The notes beneath the pieces were generated by a model, which saw only the letters and a program-made list of their open reading frames with translations, made no database searches and was not told the DNA's origin. From a virus, in IMG/VR virus record IMGVR_UViG_3300031688_000185, positions 1 to 20,241 of that record: a stretch of DNA of 20,241 nucleotides. One strand, 5' to 3'. The number at the start of each line of letters is the position of its first letter. Within the stretch, counting starts at the first letter, position 1. Below are positions 11,190-17,688 of the stretch, in pieces. A program made the position numbers and the translations under genes.

Positions 11190-11776
11190 GGTTCATATAC
11201 TCTTTCAAATTTTGCAGTTACATTATAATGGTTAGAGTTTGAAAAGCTAATACTCCAATTTGGGCATATTACTTTTACCTGTCTCTCATCCGGATTAGTA
11301 AAGGTTAAGTCAGTAGAACTGCTTATAGTTTGTAAACTATTTAGTACAACAGCATTTCCAGATATACTTGCAACAGTAACCGTGCCTATTATTCCTGTAC
11401 CTGTTACTGTCGAACCTGTTGATATATTTGCATTATTTGCCGAAGGTGCTAAAGCCACTGAATTTGAGTTACTAACCGCTGCGTTAACAACCCCTATCGC
11501 GGTAGTGGTAGAATTAGTATCTGGGTAGGTAAAGGCAAAAGAAGTTACACCTTTATTAGCTTTAAAAAAGGCTTCTATATCGTTAGCCTCTATTCGTGGC
11601 CGGTTCACAAACCCTATAGAGAAACTCTCTTGAATCGAGTTTAGTCCCTGTGCTATTCTCTGTTGATAACCATCCCCAAATTTAGCAACACTTACGTTAG
11701 GGCTTGAAGACATAGTTAAAGTCTTATCAGGTATAACCTTAGCAGCAATATTTGTTACTATGAATCCAATTGTCAT
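11186..11776 (-). CDS. M: Minor tail protein M-like with inserted beta domain (196 aa)
   Basis: Lambda gpM (109 residues) is a distal-tail tip component. The matching core is split here: VSVAKFGDGYQQRIAQGLN (residues 28-46) and FFKANKGVTSFAFTYPD (70-86) on one side, ERQVKVICPNWSISFSN and YNVTAKFERVYEP (164-196) on the other. Residues 87-162 are an insert with no counterpart in lambda; it contains GSTVTGTGIIGTVTVASIS and VVLNSLQTISSSTDLTFT, a Gly-Thr-Val beta module I recognise from many marine phage virion proteins. ATG at 11776 overlaps the TAA of the tape measure by one base (TAATG), with GGAG seven bases upstream. The insert falls where lambda has the TPPYEWRQIKV loop, so it probably projects from the tail surface. 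Confidence 0.9.
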   Translation of the reverse strand: MTIGFIVTNIAAKVIPDKTLTMSSSPNVSVAKFGDGYQQRIAQGLNSIQESFSIGFVNRPRIEANDIEAFFKANKGVTSFAFTYPDTNSTTTAIGVVNAAVSNSNSVALAPSANNANISTGSTVTGTGIIGTVTVASISGNAVVLNSLQTISSSTDLTFTNPDERQVKVICPNWSISFSNSNHYNVTAKFERVYEP

Positions 11777-14700
11777 TATGCTACTCCATACGGATTTAGT
11801 ATTCCGCCCGATCGTTTTTGATACTGTAATTCTTTCTGTACTGCTTGAGATATTGCAGCGCCTATGTCCTGCCCTTGTTGGCTATCGGAGGACGAATCTG
11901 ACTTATTACCACTACCATCCATGGTTACACTGATAGTTACGTTATTTTGTGTACCAGTGCCTCCCCCATTTACCATCTCTACTGGTATCTTTTTATTCTG
12001 CCCAACTGGTACTACTGCTTCTGTTCCATGAAGTACTGCAGGATACCCCGCATCTCGTCCTTGGGCAATTCCACCTGCACGGTAGCCTTTCGGCTCAGTT
12101 ATTCCTCCGTACCTCTGCGTCGGGCCACTCACCATCTTCATCTTCGATACATCAGGCTTCGTGGGACCCGGACCGGTCATCTTTGTTGCGCCAATATTTC
12201 CTATCATCCCCATAGCTGCTAGAATAAGCTTAGCTGCCAGCGCTTCTGCTATAATCCTGCCCATCTGCTTTAAAATACCCACTGCCATATTTCTGAAAGC
12301 ATCTTTTACTTTCAGAGTACCGTTTATCATACCCTCAAAAGCATCTGCCATACCTGCGCCTATACCGTCTGAAACAGTTGCCCCTAGCCTTCCTATTGTA
12401 CTAAGGTTCTTTTTAACTTTTAAGACCGCCATATCCTGGCCTGTCAACAAGGCTTCTTGCTTATCTATAGCCCTTTGTAGGACGTCCAGTCCTTCTTTAG
12501 GAGCATTGTCTTCCTTTTTCAATTTTGACTGATAGGATCGTTGGGCAGCCTCCAAGTCTAGTTGTATCCTAGCTCTCTTTGCTACTTCTGCTTTTATTTT
12601 TAATTCGTTATTAACAAACTGTGTAACATTTTTAGGCATAAAACTAGCTTCATTCGCGGCCATACTATTTTTTATATCCGCCATAAGATTGTCTAGTCTT
12701 GCTACTTCGTCTGCTGCCTCTTTTATAGTCTCTGTATAAGCTTCTAAACCCCCGAAACTGCTAAATAATGCGTCCATCTTCTCCTGAGCATCACTGTGTA
12801 CTTTGAGGTTGTTCGCAGTGATAACTAACTCTGCCCCCTCGTTTCTTAGGCTCTCTATAAACTCTAACTGTTCAGGCATGCTTTTTTCGTTCAAGCTAGT
12901 TAAAGAATTTAGGGCATTTTTAAAAGAGCTTGTCTTTCCTACAAAGTCTCTGTTAGCTATTTCAATTTTATTTAAAGCATCATCGTTGCCGGCCTCTATG
13001 AGTGAGACAATTTCTACCCCAACAGGCCCTAAAAGTGACAGATTAGCCGCGTCTAGTCCGGCGACTAAGTCGTCTAAAGCGGCTTTTTGTGCAGCAGGAT
13101 CTAATTTCTCCGACATTACCTTAGCTACTAGATCAGCTATATTCATTGTGGACAAAAAGGTTGATTTAATAAGGTCTTTTTTAACAGCCCCTTCTGCTTT
13201 CTTTAGGCCTAGTAGTACATTCTTTAAATCTAGACCAACCTCTTTTGCCACAGCACTAAGAGACTCGAGTCTCTCACTCATCGATTCGATTTTCTTATTT
13301 TCAGCCTCATCTTTTGCCCACTGTTCCATGGGTAAATAGGTATTAGCTAGGTCTGTTAGGCCTGCCATTGCGTCGTCCCCAAAAGTGAAAGGCGTAATCA
13401 GTTGATTATCCTTGCCATCAATTCCAAGCATCTTCTGAGCCCACTCGGGTAGCTTCTCAGCCATGCCATTTATTGCTTTTGCTATAGTATTTAGGCCCCA
13501 CTGCAAGCCCTTTGCAACACTGGAAATCATAGATATAAAGTTAGTTACAACTGTAGCAGGGGCCTTAGACATTGCCTCTAAACCTGATAAAATAGTTCCT
13601 ACTATACCTAATATTACAGTTGCTTTTGCTGCCATGGAAAAAGCTTTTGCTGCGCCCTTAGCTACTTTTGTAGCTAGCCTATAAGGAGCAACGATGCCTG
13701 CTTTTATACCTTTACCCATGAGTTTAAAGAATCTAATGCTCTTTCTAGACCCTGCAGCGATTGTCTGAAATACAGTACGACCTTCTCTATTCATCTGCTC
13801 AAAAGATCTTTTGAAGTGCTTCAACCGTTTAATATCTTCGCCTTTAAATATTCCGCTTACAACTTCTCCATGCTTCTTATATTGTGCCTCTGCCCTATCT
13901 AACGCTGTTTGTAACGCTTTAGTATCTTTCTTACCGAGTTTCTCACCCTTTGCGAGTTTTTGAACTGTCTTACTTTTGGAGCCGCCGTCAACAAGCTGCT
14001 TAGCTATACCTACGGTTTTCTTAGTGGCGGCTGCTTTTACCTTCTCAAGAGTTTGTTTTGTTTTCTGTAACTGAGCATTATACTCCTTCCATTCTGATAT
14101 ACCTCCTAGTACATCTAAGGAGGCACTTTTACCAAAGTCTCCTATTTTAGTAGTTAATGCTTGTATACCGGGAATACTCTTAATAATGGAAATACCTATT
14201 AAGGCAAAAACAGTCGCGGCTACTTTAGCATTTTTCTGCATAAAGTCTGCCAGCGATATAAATGCGGGAAGAAATAGGTCTGTAACTTGACGTACGATCT
14301 CACCAAAGGTTTTTTGAAGCTGGACAAAGGGGTTTGATATTGCTTCAGCGTCTCCAAAGGTTTCATTCAACTGTCTTTGGGTTTCTACTAGTACCGCTTG
14401 GCTTCTCTCATAGCTAGTTAAATCGTCTGCATTCTTACCTATTGCAGCACCATACCTTTTAGTAGCAGTTTCCAGTCTTAAAGTTATGCCTAATTCATCT
14501 AGTAGCTCTGGCTCCGCTTTAGAGGCACCTCGTACTAAACGGTCAAAGGCATCCTCGAATCCTAATCCTAAGGCTGCGGCGGCTTTTTGGGCCCCTACAG
14601 CGAGGTCTTCCATTTGTTGTGGCGAGAACCCTTTTGCAACACCAATTGCGGTGGCTGCGGCTGCCTCTTTAAAGCTTAACATGCCGTTTGCAGCTTCTTG

Positions 14701-15069
14701 TAGCCGCATGGTTAAACCTCTCATAGCTATACCAGTACTGGCAGCGAAGGCGGTTTGGCTTTTTCTAAGGTTCGCAACATCAGCGGCATTTTTAAGGAAG
14801 TTAAATGCAGCAGTCAAGGCGAATACGTTAGCAGCTAGTGTAGCGTACGCTGGCACTAAGCCGCTTGAGATGCCTTGCATCATTTTTGCGTTATTTTTTG
14901 TAGTATTCGCAGAAGTCTGGGCGGCGCCTTTTAGTCTACGATCCGTAGTCTGTGCGGCTCTGCCCATTCTCTCCAAGCCGTCAGCAGCGCCAGCGGCACC
15001 TAACCCAACTTTCTTGGTGGAGCCTTTGTCGTCTACTTTTACGTCTACACTGACTGTATTTTTTGCCAT
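11776..15069 (-). CDS. H: Tail tape measure protein (lambda gpH-like, 1097 aa)
   Basis: The long, Ala/Lys-rich protein sits directly after the chaperone frames, where a tape measure is expected. It is mostly helical, with hydrophobic segments near residues 69-93 (LVPAYATLAANVFALTAAF), 282-305, 476-498 and 935-963. A phage-tape-measure-like region spans about 95-275. The end contains KVKDAFRNMAVGILKQMGRI, then RYGGITEPKGYRAGGIAQG and AVLHGTEAVVPVGQ, the usual C-terminal pattern of lambda-type tape measures. It fixes tail length and is ejected during DNA entry. At about 0.15 nm per residue, a family rule of thumb, the tail would be around 165 nm; lambda H has 853 residues. ATG at 15069 overlaps the stop of the GT frame (TAATG). 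Confidence 0.95.
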   Translation of the reverse strand: MAKNTVSVDVKVDDKGSTKKVGLGAAGAADGLERMGRAAQTTDRRLKGAAQTSANTTKNNAKMMQGISSGLVPAYATLAANVFALTAAFNFLKNAADVANLRKSQTAFAASTGIAMRGLTMRLQEAANGMLSFKEAAAATAIGVAKGFSPQQMEDLAVGAQKAAAALGLGFEDAFDRLVRGASKAEPELLDELGITLRLETATKRYGAAIGKNADDLTSYERSQAVLVETQRQLNETFGDAEAISNPFVQLQKTFGEIVRQVTDLFLPAFISLADFMQKNAKVAATVFALIGISIIKSIPGIQALTTKIGDFGKSASLDVLGGISEWKEYNAQLQKTKQTLEKVKAAATKKTVGIAKQLVDGGSKSKTVQKLAKGEKLGKKDTKALQTALDRAEAQYKKHGEVVSGIFKGEDIKRLKHFKRSFEQMNREGRTVFQTIAAGSRKSIRFFKLMGKGIKAGIVAPYRLATKVAKGAAKAFSMAAKATVILGIVGTILSGLEAMSKAPATVVTNFISMISSVAKGLQWGLNTIAKAINGMAEKLPEWAQKMLGIDGKDNQLITPFTFGDDAMAGLTDLANTYLPMEQWAKDEAENKKIESMSERLESLSAVAKEVGLDLKNVLLGLKKAEGAVKKDLIKSTFLSTMNIADLVAKVMSEKLDPAAQKAALDDLVAGLDAANLSLLGPVGVEIVSLIEAGNDDALNKIEIANRDFVGKTSSFKNALNSLTSLNEKSMPEQLEFIESLRNEGAELVITANNLKVHSDAQEKMDALFSSFGGLEAYTETIKEAADEVARLDNLMADIKNSMAANEASFMPKNVTQFVNNELKIKAEVAKRARIQLDLEAAQRSYQSKLKKEDNAPKEGLDVLQRAIDKQEALLTGQDMAVLKVKKNLSTIGRLGATVSDGIGAGMADAFEGMINGTLKVKDAFRNMAVGILKQMGRIIAEALAAKLILAAMGMIGNIGATKMTGPGPTKPDVSKMKMVSGPTQRYGGITEPKGYRAGGIAQGRDAGYPAVLHGTEAVVPVGQNKKIPVEMVNGGGTGTQNNVTISVTMDGSGNKSDSSSDSQQGQDIGAAISQAVQKELQYQKRSGGILNPYGVA

Positions 15070-15365
15070 TATCCCTGTATTCTATGGGTGTATGTCGTAC
15101 CATCACCGCCTTTTGTCTTGTTTTTCTTCTCCTTTCTCTTCTGGTCTTCGTGACGTTTCCTTTGTAATAAAGAATCATGTAGTTTCATAAAGTATAAAAC
15201 GTCTCGCCTATTATCAACTTCATATAAATGAAATAATTGGGTAGTTTCTGTCCAATTTTTACCCATGTACATACCTGACATACCGTCCCACTTTTCTGAA
15301 ACAAGATCAGATATAAAAAATGCCATTTGAACTTCTTCTGGGAAAACAGAAGGTTCAAGTGGCAT
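15069..15365 (-). CDS. T-domain frame of GT (ATG-bounded part, 98 aa); probably not a separate gene
   Basis: A gene finder that ignores frameshifting would report this 98-residue frame from ATG 15365 (MPLEPSVFPEEVQMAFF). The bases upstream (GATCCCCAAAGA) hold no convincing Shine-Dalgarno sequence, and the same frame is open for another 42 codons up to the slippery site in G. I therefore read it as the C-terminal portion of GT rather than an independently started protein. Internal initiation at 15365 is possible but has no support in the sequence. Its stop overlaps the tape-measure start by one base. Confidence 0.45.
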   Translation of the reverse strand: MPLEPSVFPEEVQMAFFISDLVSEKWDGMSGMYMGKNWTETTQLFHLYEVDNRRDVLYFMKLHDSLLQRKRHEDQKRKEKKNKTKGGDGTTYTHRIQG

Positions 15366-15916
15366 TCTTTGGGGATCAGGTTCTTCACCTAGTTGTTCGC
15401 AGATAAGCAGGTACTTCTCTACGTCAATAGAGTCCTGCTCTGTTACATACCTTTCAAGTAGCGTTTGTATCTCTGCTACTTGTTCTGCGTAAAATTTTCC
15501 AAGTCACCTACAGCATCGGTCAACCATGAATCAAAATCTGACCCATTTTGCATTAAAGTTGCTGCATTGTCCTGAGTATAAGGTAAACAATCATTAGGAT
15601 CAAATTGTGAAACATCCACCAAAAGAAGCTCTTCTAAGTATGAATATTTTAACCCTTTCCATCCTTTTATAACTGCTGTAGTATACTCTGTTAAAAACTT
15701 ATCATCATCTAACTCTTCTATGGGCTGCCTTGTTTTCTTATCCCACTTATTTGAAAGACATCGCTTTCTTAACTTAAGTAGCCCTTCCCTTGCTAAATGA
15801 CAAACGTCAATAGTAAAGCCTTCATAACCAGGGTAGTCCATGGTTACTGTCTTACTGGGAGTCATAAGACTCTTTAGCGGTACGGGTTCTTTTTTAGTAG
15901 TTGTAGCGTCAGACAT
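15069..15916 (-). CDS. Tail assembly chaperone GT, predicted -1 frameshift fusion (282 aa)
   Basis: Translation starts at the ATG of G (15916), reads 142 codons to the slippery sequence A-AAT-TTT (15497-15491), slips back one base and continues in the second frame as YAEQVAEIQTLLERYVTEQ to the TAA at 15071-15069. I read the intervening frame base by base and found no stop. The product has 282 residues, against 279 for lambda gpGT. In lambda, G and GT in a fixed ratio coat the tape measure and recruit tail-tube protein; the T part contacts tube subunits. The T part here ends in a strongly basic stretch (KRHEDQKRKEKKNKTKGG). The frameshift is predicted from sequence only, but position, lengths, slippery site and stem-loop agree. 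Confidence 0.88.
15455..15497 (-). promoter_or_regulatory. -1 ribosomal frameshift signal (slippery heptamer plus stem-loop)
   Basis: The G frame reads GAA AAT TTT ACG, so the heptamer A-AAT-TTT (15497-15491) fits X-XXY-YYZ in the correct phase. After an 8-base spacer comes a perfect 8-bp stem, CAAGTAGC (15482-15475) and GCTACTTG (15462-15455), around a 12-base loop. The TAG stop of G (15478-15476) lies inside the 5' arm. Four loop bases (ATAC) could pair with GTAT at 15450-15447, a weak pseudoknot possibility. Slippage joins G to T. The heptamer differs from lambda's GGGAAAG. Efficiency cannot be judged from sequence. Confidence 0.85.
15476..15916 (-). CDS. G: Tail assembly chaperone G-like (146 aa)
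   Basis: This is the main, non-shifted chaperone product, expected to bind the tape measure during tail assembly and be absent from the virion. It is close in length to lambda gpG (140). Recognisable features include an N-terminal disordered KKEPVPLKSLMTPSKTV, a central Lys/Leu helix region, IKGWKGLKYSYLEELLLVD near residues 87-105 and the end DFDSWLTDAVGDLENFTQNK, a pattern I associate with phage tail chaperones. ATG at 15916 has an AGGA site about ten bases upstream and is first in the transcript from the promoter at 15946-15974, which should make it abundant. It ends at TAG 15478-15476, just past the slippery site. Confidence 0.92.
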   Translation of the reverse strand: MSDATTTKKEPVPLKSLMTPSKTVTMDYPGYEGFTIDVCHLAREGLLKLRKRCLSNKWDKKTRQPIEELDDDKFLTEYTTAVIKGWKGLKYSYLEELLLVDVSQFDPNDCLPYTQDNAATLMQNGSDFDSWLTDAVGDLENFTQNK

Positions 15917-15945
15917 GATTATTAAATCCTTATTTTTAAAACTAA

Positions 15946-15974
15946 ATTATACGATATAAGACAATAAATGTCAA
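15946..15974 (-). promoter_or_regulatory. Consensus sigma70 promoter for the tail-assembly operon
   Basis: On the minus strand TTGACA (15974-15969) and TATAAT (15951-15946) are both perfect consensus hexamers with an ideal 17-base spacer. Start of transcription is expected near 15937-15939, leaving a leader of about 22 bases before the ATG of the chaperone. It lies immediately downstream of the intrinsic terminator of the tube gene, so it restarts transcription for chaperone, tape measure and tip genes. GACA and TGTC flanking TTTAT inside the -35/spacer region form a small inverted repeat; it could be an operator half-site pair but is short enough to be chance. Confidence 0.88.
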
Positions 15975-15998: not shown

Positions 15999-16021
15999 AA
16001 AAAAGGGGCCGGAGCCCCTTT
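15999..16021 (-). terminator. Intrinsic terminator after the major tail protein gene
   Basis: Minus-strand AAAGGGGC, loop TCCG, GCCCCTTT forms a perfect 8-bp hairpin (16021-16002), and the 3' arm runs on into T residues to 15999, giving six T in a row. It begins five bases after the TAA-type stop of the tube gene (16027). Stem, tight loop and U-tract are all textbook. It would limit highly expressed tube transcripts from running into the chaperone genes. On the plus strand the hairpin is followed by TCAG, so it serves the minus strand only. Confidence 0.92.
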
Positions 16022-16026
16022 CAGTG

Positions 16027-17688
16027 TTAAGCGTAATCATCTACCGGGAAGTAGGTAATTGAGCTAATTTCGTCTGCAATTCCAAAGTCTGTTGGGAGTG
16101 CTGTGAAGTTAGTTTCCATTGAGATAACATCCTCAATAGAGTGTGTTGGTACTTCAATATGTGCAGTAGGGAATACAACTTTTAATGCTGGGTCGGTTGC
16201 ATTACCAGTAGCAGTAGCTCCGCCAATATGCATTGTTACTTCAAACTTATTTACAACTTTTGCCATTGCACCAATACTAACAAGATCGTTAAAAAACTGT
16301 CTTGAGGTACCTGCAGAACGGTCAGCGTCATTCAAAGTAAGATAGCAAGTTGCAGAACCGCCAGCATTTCTACTACCAGTTACATGCTCCAAAGGCTTGT
16401 TAATAGCACCTAGCTCTTCCGGTACAAGGTAGGAGATATTATTACCAATAGTAAAGCTTCCTCCTGTCAGTACAAGACTGTACCTACCATTTGCAGCAAC
16501 TAAGTTAGTAGCGCTGAAAGTTCCCACCGTTCCGGTACTAAGGTCTAACCCACCTATAGTGAAGGTATTTGCAGCAACTGCCGTAATAGTATGCTCAATA
16601 TTCTGCAGAACATCCACACTACTGATAGTAATACCACAAGTACCTGTAACAAACACTTTGTCTCCTACAGCAAATCCATGTGCTGTTGCTGACGCAACTG
16701 CACCAGCTACTTTAGTGAGACCAGTAATAGAAGCTGAACTACCTGGGAAGATAGTTGGAATCTTATCAGTAGCATCGGCTGTTTCAATAGACACAGAAGT
16801 CAGTCGATTACGAATGAAGTTTTTAGTACTATTAGTACCTTCATCTATTGCTGGGGTAAGTGACACAAAGCCGCTTCCTGCTGGGACTGTACTGACAATA
16901 TTAAACTGTCTTCCTAATGCATTATCAGTGTCAATAAAAACATCACCTAATGCAATAGCGCTAGTGTCTCGGGTTGTTGCATTGTACGCTGGTGCAGTAA
17001 TGCCTGTAAGTACGCCTCCGGAAACATCTTGAATTTCCTTAGACATTCCTGACCATCCCAGAGTAGCAATACCGTCTACATCAAAGTCTACACTGACTTC
17101 GTTTACAACGGCTTCCGGCATACGATATACCAAAGGATCAGCATTTGCAGTATCAATCATAAAGAAGATAGTAAATCCGCTCATAGCAGACCTATTAGAT
17201 TCTGTTACTTTTATTACAGAACTTGAACTCCCTGGGGTAAGAACAGCACCGCCTGCTACAGCAGGATTGGTGGCTCGGGTAAAGCCATTTGCTTTGACGT
17301 AAGTATCTGCGCCAAACATAGCTGCCCATAAGACCTCTTCTACCGCGTGTACCTCTGTAGCACTATCTGCTGATACACTACCAGTAGGGACAGGAGACCC
17401 TGCTTTAGACTCAAAAGGCCTGATGTATGTAGAAAAAGACCATTCGGCAGGTGCCAAAGAGTCTGTAAACATACGACGACCACGTCTACTTATACCTGCG
17501 GTGCTTTCCATTTCCGCAAGTGTTATTTCGGAGGTATTGGTAGTCTGTGAAAAGCTATAGCCGTCCAAGATGGGAATTTCCCACAATGCTCCTTCACCCA
17601 GTTTAAGGGGGGATTCTGTATTATCAGCAGGGTTACGAAATTGAACAAACATTCTCGTATCACGACTGAAATATAATTGTTGTGCCAT
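16027..17688 (-). CDS. Major tail (tube) protein with inserted beta domain (553 aa)
   Basis: Position (after the tail terminator, before the chaperones), a strong AGGAG ribosome site and a dedicated terminator indicate the tube protein, the lambda V counterpart. N-terminal motifs MAQQLYFSRDTRMFVQF, IPILDGYSFSQTTNTSEIT, SRRGRRMF and LAPAEWSFSTYIRPFES are ones I associate with large tube proteins of environmental siphoviruses. Most lambda-type tube proteins have 150-250 residues; this one has 553. Residues 320-395 (TAHGFAVGDKVFVTGTCG, NTFTIGGLDLSTG) resemble a small E1-FCCH-like beta domain that phages often insert in virion proteins. The C-terminal part (FEVTMHIGGATATGN, then TAHIEVPTHSIEDVISMETNF) looks like tube core again. 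Exact domain borders are estimates. Confidence 0.85.
   Translation of the reverse strand: MAQQLYFSRDTRMFVQFRNPADNTESPLKLGEGALWEIPILDGYSFSQTTNTSEITLAEMESTAGISRRGRRMFTDSLAPAEWSFSTYIRPFESKAGSPVPTGSVSADSATEVHAVEEVLWAAMFGADTYVKANGFTRATNPAVAGGAVLTPGSSSSVIKVTESNRSAMSGFTIFFMIDTANADPLVYRMPEAVVNEVSVDFDVDGIATLGWSGMSKEIQDVSGGVLTGITAPAYNATTRDTSAIALGDVFIDTDNALGRQFNIVSTVPAGSGFVSLTPAIDEGTNSTKNFIRNRLTSVSIETADATDKIPTIFPGSSASITGLTKVAGAVASATAHGFAVGDKVFVTGTCGITISSVDVLQNIEHTITAVAANTFTIGGLDLSTGTVGTFSATNLVAANGRYSLVLTGGSFTIGNNISYLVPEELGAINKPLEHVTGSRNAGGSATCYLTLNDADRSAGTSRQFFNDLVSIGAMAKVVNKFEVTMHIGGATATGNATDPALKVVFPTAHIEVPTHSIEDVISMETNFTALPTDFGIADEISSITYFPVDDYA

Follow-up and report, generated by a model that had tools for sequence, protein, structure and literature searches.

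The tail module of an uncultured marine virus of bacteria very probably (estimated probability of about 0.94) encodes two tail assembly chaperones, G and GT, produced from one locus via a -1 programmed ribosomal frameshift. Frameshift-made pairs of tail chaperones are a textbook feature of tailed phages. The evidence consists of the anatomy of the site, its conservation, the covariation of a downstream hairpin, the homology of the products to chaperones, and the coding character that T shows ahead of any start codon; the slippage itself, its efficiency, and the role in assembly are inferred. An earlier note had proposed a -1 frameshift joining G and GT, and this proposal is borne out by homology, synteny, codons frozen at the site, the covarying hairpin, and the periodicity of the T frame.

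Organization of the locus

The window, i.e., the whole stretch of DNA analysed, comprises 20,241 bases of the virus record IMGVR_UViG_3300031688_000185. Its minus strand carries a siphovirus tail module in a lambda-like order (head-tail connector, tail terminator, major tail protein, G, T, tape measure, and minor tail proteins). Two overlapping frames sit between the genes for the major tail protein (16027-17688, 553 aa; phrog_3575, E 2e-39) and the tape measure protein (11776-15069, 1097 aa; phrog_3779, E 4e-41). The first, G (15476-15916), specifies a zero-frame product of 146 aa followed by TAG, is preceded by a Shine-Dalgarno-like AAGGA (15927-15931) 10 nt ahead of its ATG, and matches the PHROG tail assembly chaperone family phrog_313 (E 5e-10). 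The second, T (15069-15503), is an open -1 frame extension providing 140 residues past the junction; it matches another tail assembly chaperone family, phrog_3914 (E 6e-13), and its stop codon is overlapped by the ATG of the tape measure gene.

The relatives of G are 27-84% identical to the protein of the window. Bacterial and archaeal genomes searched with G yielded no relative, Pfam returned zero matches for the G/T chaperone products, and comparison with solved structures, by sequence or by fold, gave no confident match for G or T (best E-value of 0.95 for the G model, with the HK97 chaperone 2ob9 at E 3). The AlphaFold2 model of T (mean pLDDT of 85) matches, using Foldseek, the tape measure chaperones of T5-like phages, with E-values of 7e-7 to 2e-5.

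A perfect sigma-70 consensus, TTGACA-N17-TATAAT (15946-15974, minus strand, 12/12), lies upstream of G. It is perfect in 39 of 91 distinct relatives, while none of 101 control stretches has fewer than two mismatches to this consensus, and such conservation makes it probable that G, GT, and the tape measure gene have their own promoter. A terminator-like element, AAAGGGGC-TCCG-GCCCCTTTTTT, can also be seen at 15999-16021 of the minus strand, in the gap separating the major tail protein gene from G; a terminator scan from the major tail protein gene to G found nothing by its rule, this element not being called.

Anatomy of the shift site

The candidate slippery heptamer, A_AAT_TTT (15497-15491, minus strand), is in the phase X_XXY_YYZ, as described in the earlier note, and starts at the last base of G codon 140, the stop of G being codon 147. 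An uninterrupted -1 frame spans 15503-15072 (144 codons, with its stop at 15071-15069) and reaches back to the heptamer, as had been stated; its first ATG, GTG, or TTG is the ATG at 15365. A shift at the heptamer gives a GT of 142 + 140 = 282 aa with the junction ENF-YAEQ, so that the previously given product lengths (146 and 282 aa) and junction (ENFYAEQ) are reproduced from the sequence.

The heptamer is followed by an 8-nt spacer, ACGCAGAA, and by a perfect 8-bp stem, CAAGTAGC (15482-15475) / GCTACTTG (15462-15455), with a 12-nt loop. The 5' arm (15475-15482, CAAGUAGC) contains the UAG of G (15478-15476), and the 3' arm (15455-15462) reads GCUACUUG; the stem, its distance, and the location of the stop codon within it all agree with the first description of the site. 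The RNA fold of the 55-nt region has an energy of -11.2 kcal/mol (z -2.7). The locus displays the features canonical for -1 frameshifting, i.e., an X_XXY_YYZ heptamer in the correct phase and a covarying downstream structure within the usual distance of 5-9 nt. By itself, the heptamer is not rare: A_AAT_TTT occurs six times in the window, for 5.6 copies expected, and the case for the site consequently rests on the relatives. Position, phase, and conservation together lift this putative slippery sequence beyond chance.

Conservation of the site in relatives

Three sets of relatives were compared. For the first, a search of IMG/VR with G gave 316 relatives, and 80 of them were retrieved irrespective of their shift site; the second was fetched with a divergent member (L095) as the query; the third (n = 70) was selected by the motif, and has to be weighed beside the unselected first set. 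As the relatives share a lineage, none of the counts below represent independent trials.

GAA_AAT_TTT_AC is present towards the end of G in every distinct relative of the first set, almost always four codons ahead of the stop. In this set, the open -1 frame starts 19-52 nt before the stop codon of G and normally runs for 130-150 codons, and the +1 frame shuts after 8-29 codons. All members of the second set have AAT_TTT_AC, with variation restricted to the first base of the heptamer. AAT_TTT_AC, thus, does not vary over about 100 distinct environmental relatives, and the whole heptamer hardly does; the alignment of relatives suggested in the earlier note also reveals a covarying stem (see below). 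In the motif-selected set, the Glu, Asn, and Phe codons of the site are fixed as GAA, AAT, and TTT in 70/70 relatives, whereas elsewhere in G these codons account for 67%, 62%, and 81% of the choices, GAG, AAC, and TTC being freely used.

The codon preceding AAT is GAT, giving T_AAT_TTT, in five relatives (L197, L203, L211, L212, and L215), which form one subclade with L200, where GAG gives G_AAT_TTT. Both frames and the hairpin are intact in these six phages, as is the U_UUU re-pairing core. The situation that the earlier note had named as evidence against a shift, an altered heptamer with intact frames, is partly present in one subclade, but because the U_UUU core and hairpin are kept there, the model is refined rather than refuted. 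With a T in first position, the P-site codon is read as UAA after the -1 shift, so that tandem re-pairing would be imperfect. In a study of dnaX variants (PMC6787027), first-position mismatches lower slippage but often leave it substantial; the T- and G-first phages may, by this measure, shift less or depend on the Phe-tRNA.

A variant of the mechanism, in which a single Phe-tRNA slips on U_UUU in the P site and the AAA part is favoured without being required, draws on this subclade, in which the first base varies with AAT_TTT_AC and hairpin unchanged, and on the T5-like phages, which pivot on the same UUU. It is nevertheless rather unlikely: GAA (X = A) is retained in 101 of 104 distinct relatives although GAG makes up one third of the Glu codons elsewhere in G, which indicates that the first A is of importance to the majority of these phages.

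Covariation of the downstream hairpin

A downstream hairpin with z < -2 is found in 97% of the 104 distinct relatives (mean z of -4.2). In clade A, 97.7% of the cells of the stem pair; the covariation score is 0.212, compared to 0.105 in shuffled alignments and at most 0.077 in slid controls, and 19 cells are altered on both sides, versus 6.4 in the shuffles. The pair 15475/15462 (columns 24/37) ranks first among 15,576 column pairs (180 columns, background-corrected covariation). One side of this pair falls on the second position of a T codon, with A/E/D/V changes, and the other on a third position, which makes protein constraint a poor explanation of the covariation. The 3' arm of clade B has been re-sited 7 nt nearer, leaving a loop of 7 nt, and covaries too, the basal G-C pair being exchanged for C-G. 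The stem, thus, persists despite the change of register.

Probable translation of the T frame before its first ATG

Between G's stop and the ATG at 15365, the differences per T codon position amount to 0.275/0.182/0.512, a periodicity that is the mark of a presumably translated frame. The T model contains confident helices at residues 2-18 and 24-34, ahead of the first ATG. The first T-frame start is found at T residue 43 in 44/70 relatives and at residue 34 in 14/70. A T frame that would be entered by frameshifting only is conserved in the relatives.

These data bear on the possibility that T is a separate protein of 98 aa, initiated at ATG 15365, with an incidental upstream overlap. The internal ATG is a Met in 70/70 relatives, and T is annotated in some T5-like records as a separate gene with its own start. 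Yet the approximately 36 T-frame codons between G's stop and this ATG show coding periodicity, no Shine-Dalgarno sequence precedes the ATG in 59 of 69 relatives, several T5-like relatives have V, I, or L at this residue, and the conservation of the heptamer and hairpin would be left without explanation, all of which makes a separate T very unlikely as the sole product. Given the conserved Met, an extra short T may still be made besides GT. A model in which ribosomes terminate at the UAG of G and then re-initiate on T would fit the position of the stop in a structured region, but most relatives are devoid of a T-frame start codon near it, and this route appears extremely improbable. The same can be said of RNA polymerase slippage, through which GT would arise at transcription, from a mixed mRNA. 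The site does contain an A/T run (AAAATTTT), but four A and four T make rather short runs for slippage by a polymerase, which, moreover, would need neither a covarying hairpin 8 nt downstream nor a particular phase of the heptamer.

Proposed mechanism

In the favoured mechanism, -1 programmed frameshifting, the majority of ribosomes would read G to its UAG, releasing the 146-aa chaperone. A minority would stall at the hairpin, allowing the Asn- and Phe-tRNAs to slip in tandem from A_AAU_UUU onto AAA_UUU, and would go on in the -1 frame to produce the 282-aa GT, which shares its N-terminus with G and carries T as its C-terminal domain. If assembly proceeds as in lambda, the G part may coat the tape measure protein, the T part may recruit the major tail protein, and both G and GT are expected to depart before completion of the virion.

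Homologous pair of T5-like phages

Based on G and T, the nearest named relatives of the window are Demerecviridae (T5-like phages) rather than lambda. T5 p139/p138 constitutes a homologous G/T pair, G being about 35% identical. In these phages, T occupies the +1 (or, equivalently, the -2) frame relative to G, and the overlap starts at TTT_CGT or TTT_CGA in 19 of 19 records, a count that includes near-copies, several of them near-identical. The records cover T5, Epseptimavirus, Sugarlandvirus, Pogseptimavirus, Cetovirus, Jesfedecavirus, Novosibvirus, Vipunavirus, the Vibrio phages D36, D260, and VCPH, and others (+1 entries L100-L106, L108-L110, L127, L130, L131, L133, L134, and L136-L140). Elsewhere in T5-like G genes, TTT represents only 40% of the Phe codons. 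From the invariant UUU_CGN at the overlap, T5 probably makes its GT through a +1 shift. A -2 shift was judged less likely, since the Phe-tRNA would then land on CUU, ACU, and the like, instead of UUC.

The two groups share homologous G and T, as well as a conserved Phe codon towards the end of G that is an invariant column across the window lineage and the T5-like group, but differ in the shift itself, -1 at UUU_ACG in the window lineage versus +1 at UUU_CGN in the T5-like phages. In the tree of fused GT proteins, which is unrooted, the -1 and +1 groups fall on opposite sides of one branch with a support of 100/100. It is quite likely, judging from these comparisons, that the G/T pair switched frameshift direction with the same Phe codon as the pivot, and equally so that the switch opposes a -1 shift on (A_AA)U_UUU with a hairpin, in the window lineage, to a +1 shift on UUU_CGU/A, in a group including T5. 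The ability of UUU to re-pair one base back or forward would have provided the evolutionary bridge between directions. The site of the Vibrio phage VCPH reads AAT_TTT_CGT. Viral contigs scanned with T5-like G for intermediates in direction gave only near-copies of known phages, or none.

A consistent hairpin was not found at the T5-like +1 site (z 0.05 in T5), and a universal one was rejected. The phage VspSw_1 has a strong hairpin (GGAGCU/AGCUCC, at about 2930-2960, z -4.1) downstream of its TTT_CGA, which T5 is without; it is possibly a lineage-specific stimulator. In two Aeromonas Shenzhenvirus phages, AhSzq-1 (L132) and Akh-2 (L135), several UAG codons interrupt the conserved G and T frames, which become continuous only when UAG is decoded as an amino acid, and the deposited annotation is correspondingly fragmented. 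This suggests amber recoding in both phages. TTT_CGA appears there too once UAG is read in this way.

The paper on Klebsiella phage Sugarland describes the chaperone as being without a predicted frameshift signal, similar to T5 (PMC6256483). The Salmonella phage Sw2 record (NC_048062), for its part, lists a joined 'Tape Measure Chaperone Frameshift Product' of 835 nt among its annotations, and BFVD includes a tape measure chaperone of 277 aa from phage Shivani, so the idea of a fused product has already been used by annotators. A literature search, limited to papers available without subscription, found none describing a T5 G/T frameshift.

Comparison with other recoding systems

The likeness to lambda G/GT holds for the product sizes, as put forward in the earlier note, and also for gene order, -1 direction, and the location of the shift near the end of G (review PMC5009743). 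It does not extend to kinship, as the G and T sequences of the window fall in T5-like and not lambda families; in the named T5-like phages, T is in the +1 frame. The lambda heptamer, GGGAAAG, also differs from A_AAU_UUU, and the window lineage is distinguished from lambda by its strong conserved hairpin, re-sited in one clade. E. coli dnaX shares the -1 shift by a bacterial ribosome on a heptamer followed by a hairpin, but its heptamer is A_AAA_AAG and it has an upstream Shine-Dalgarno-like stimulator.

For the +1 sites, the closest parallel is influenza A PA-X, where the Phe-tRNA re-pairs from UUU to UUC at UCC_UUU_CGU (PMC3498833), a site whose UUU_CGU core is shared by most T5-like sites. 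The likeness is one of site only, as PA-X belongs to a eukaryotic virus, the 5' UCC context is missing in the phages, and CGU is not rare in E. coli.

Significance

The frameshift described here, with its heptamer and covarying hairpin followed over about 100 lineages, constitutes a well-conserved and unusually clear case of the lambda G/GT kind. It corrects the annotation of this lineage, in which T is to be annotated as GT. The T5 +1 shift is directly testable in a laboratory phage and, if the change of direction is true, the G/T pair would offer a natural system for a recoding site that changes direction while its product is kept.
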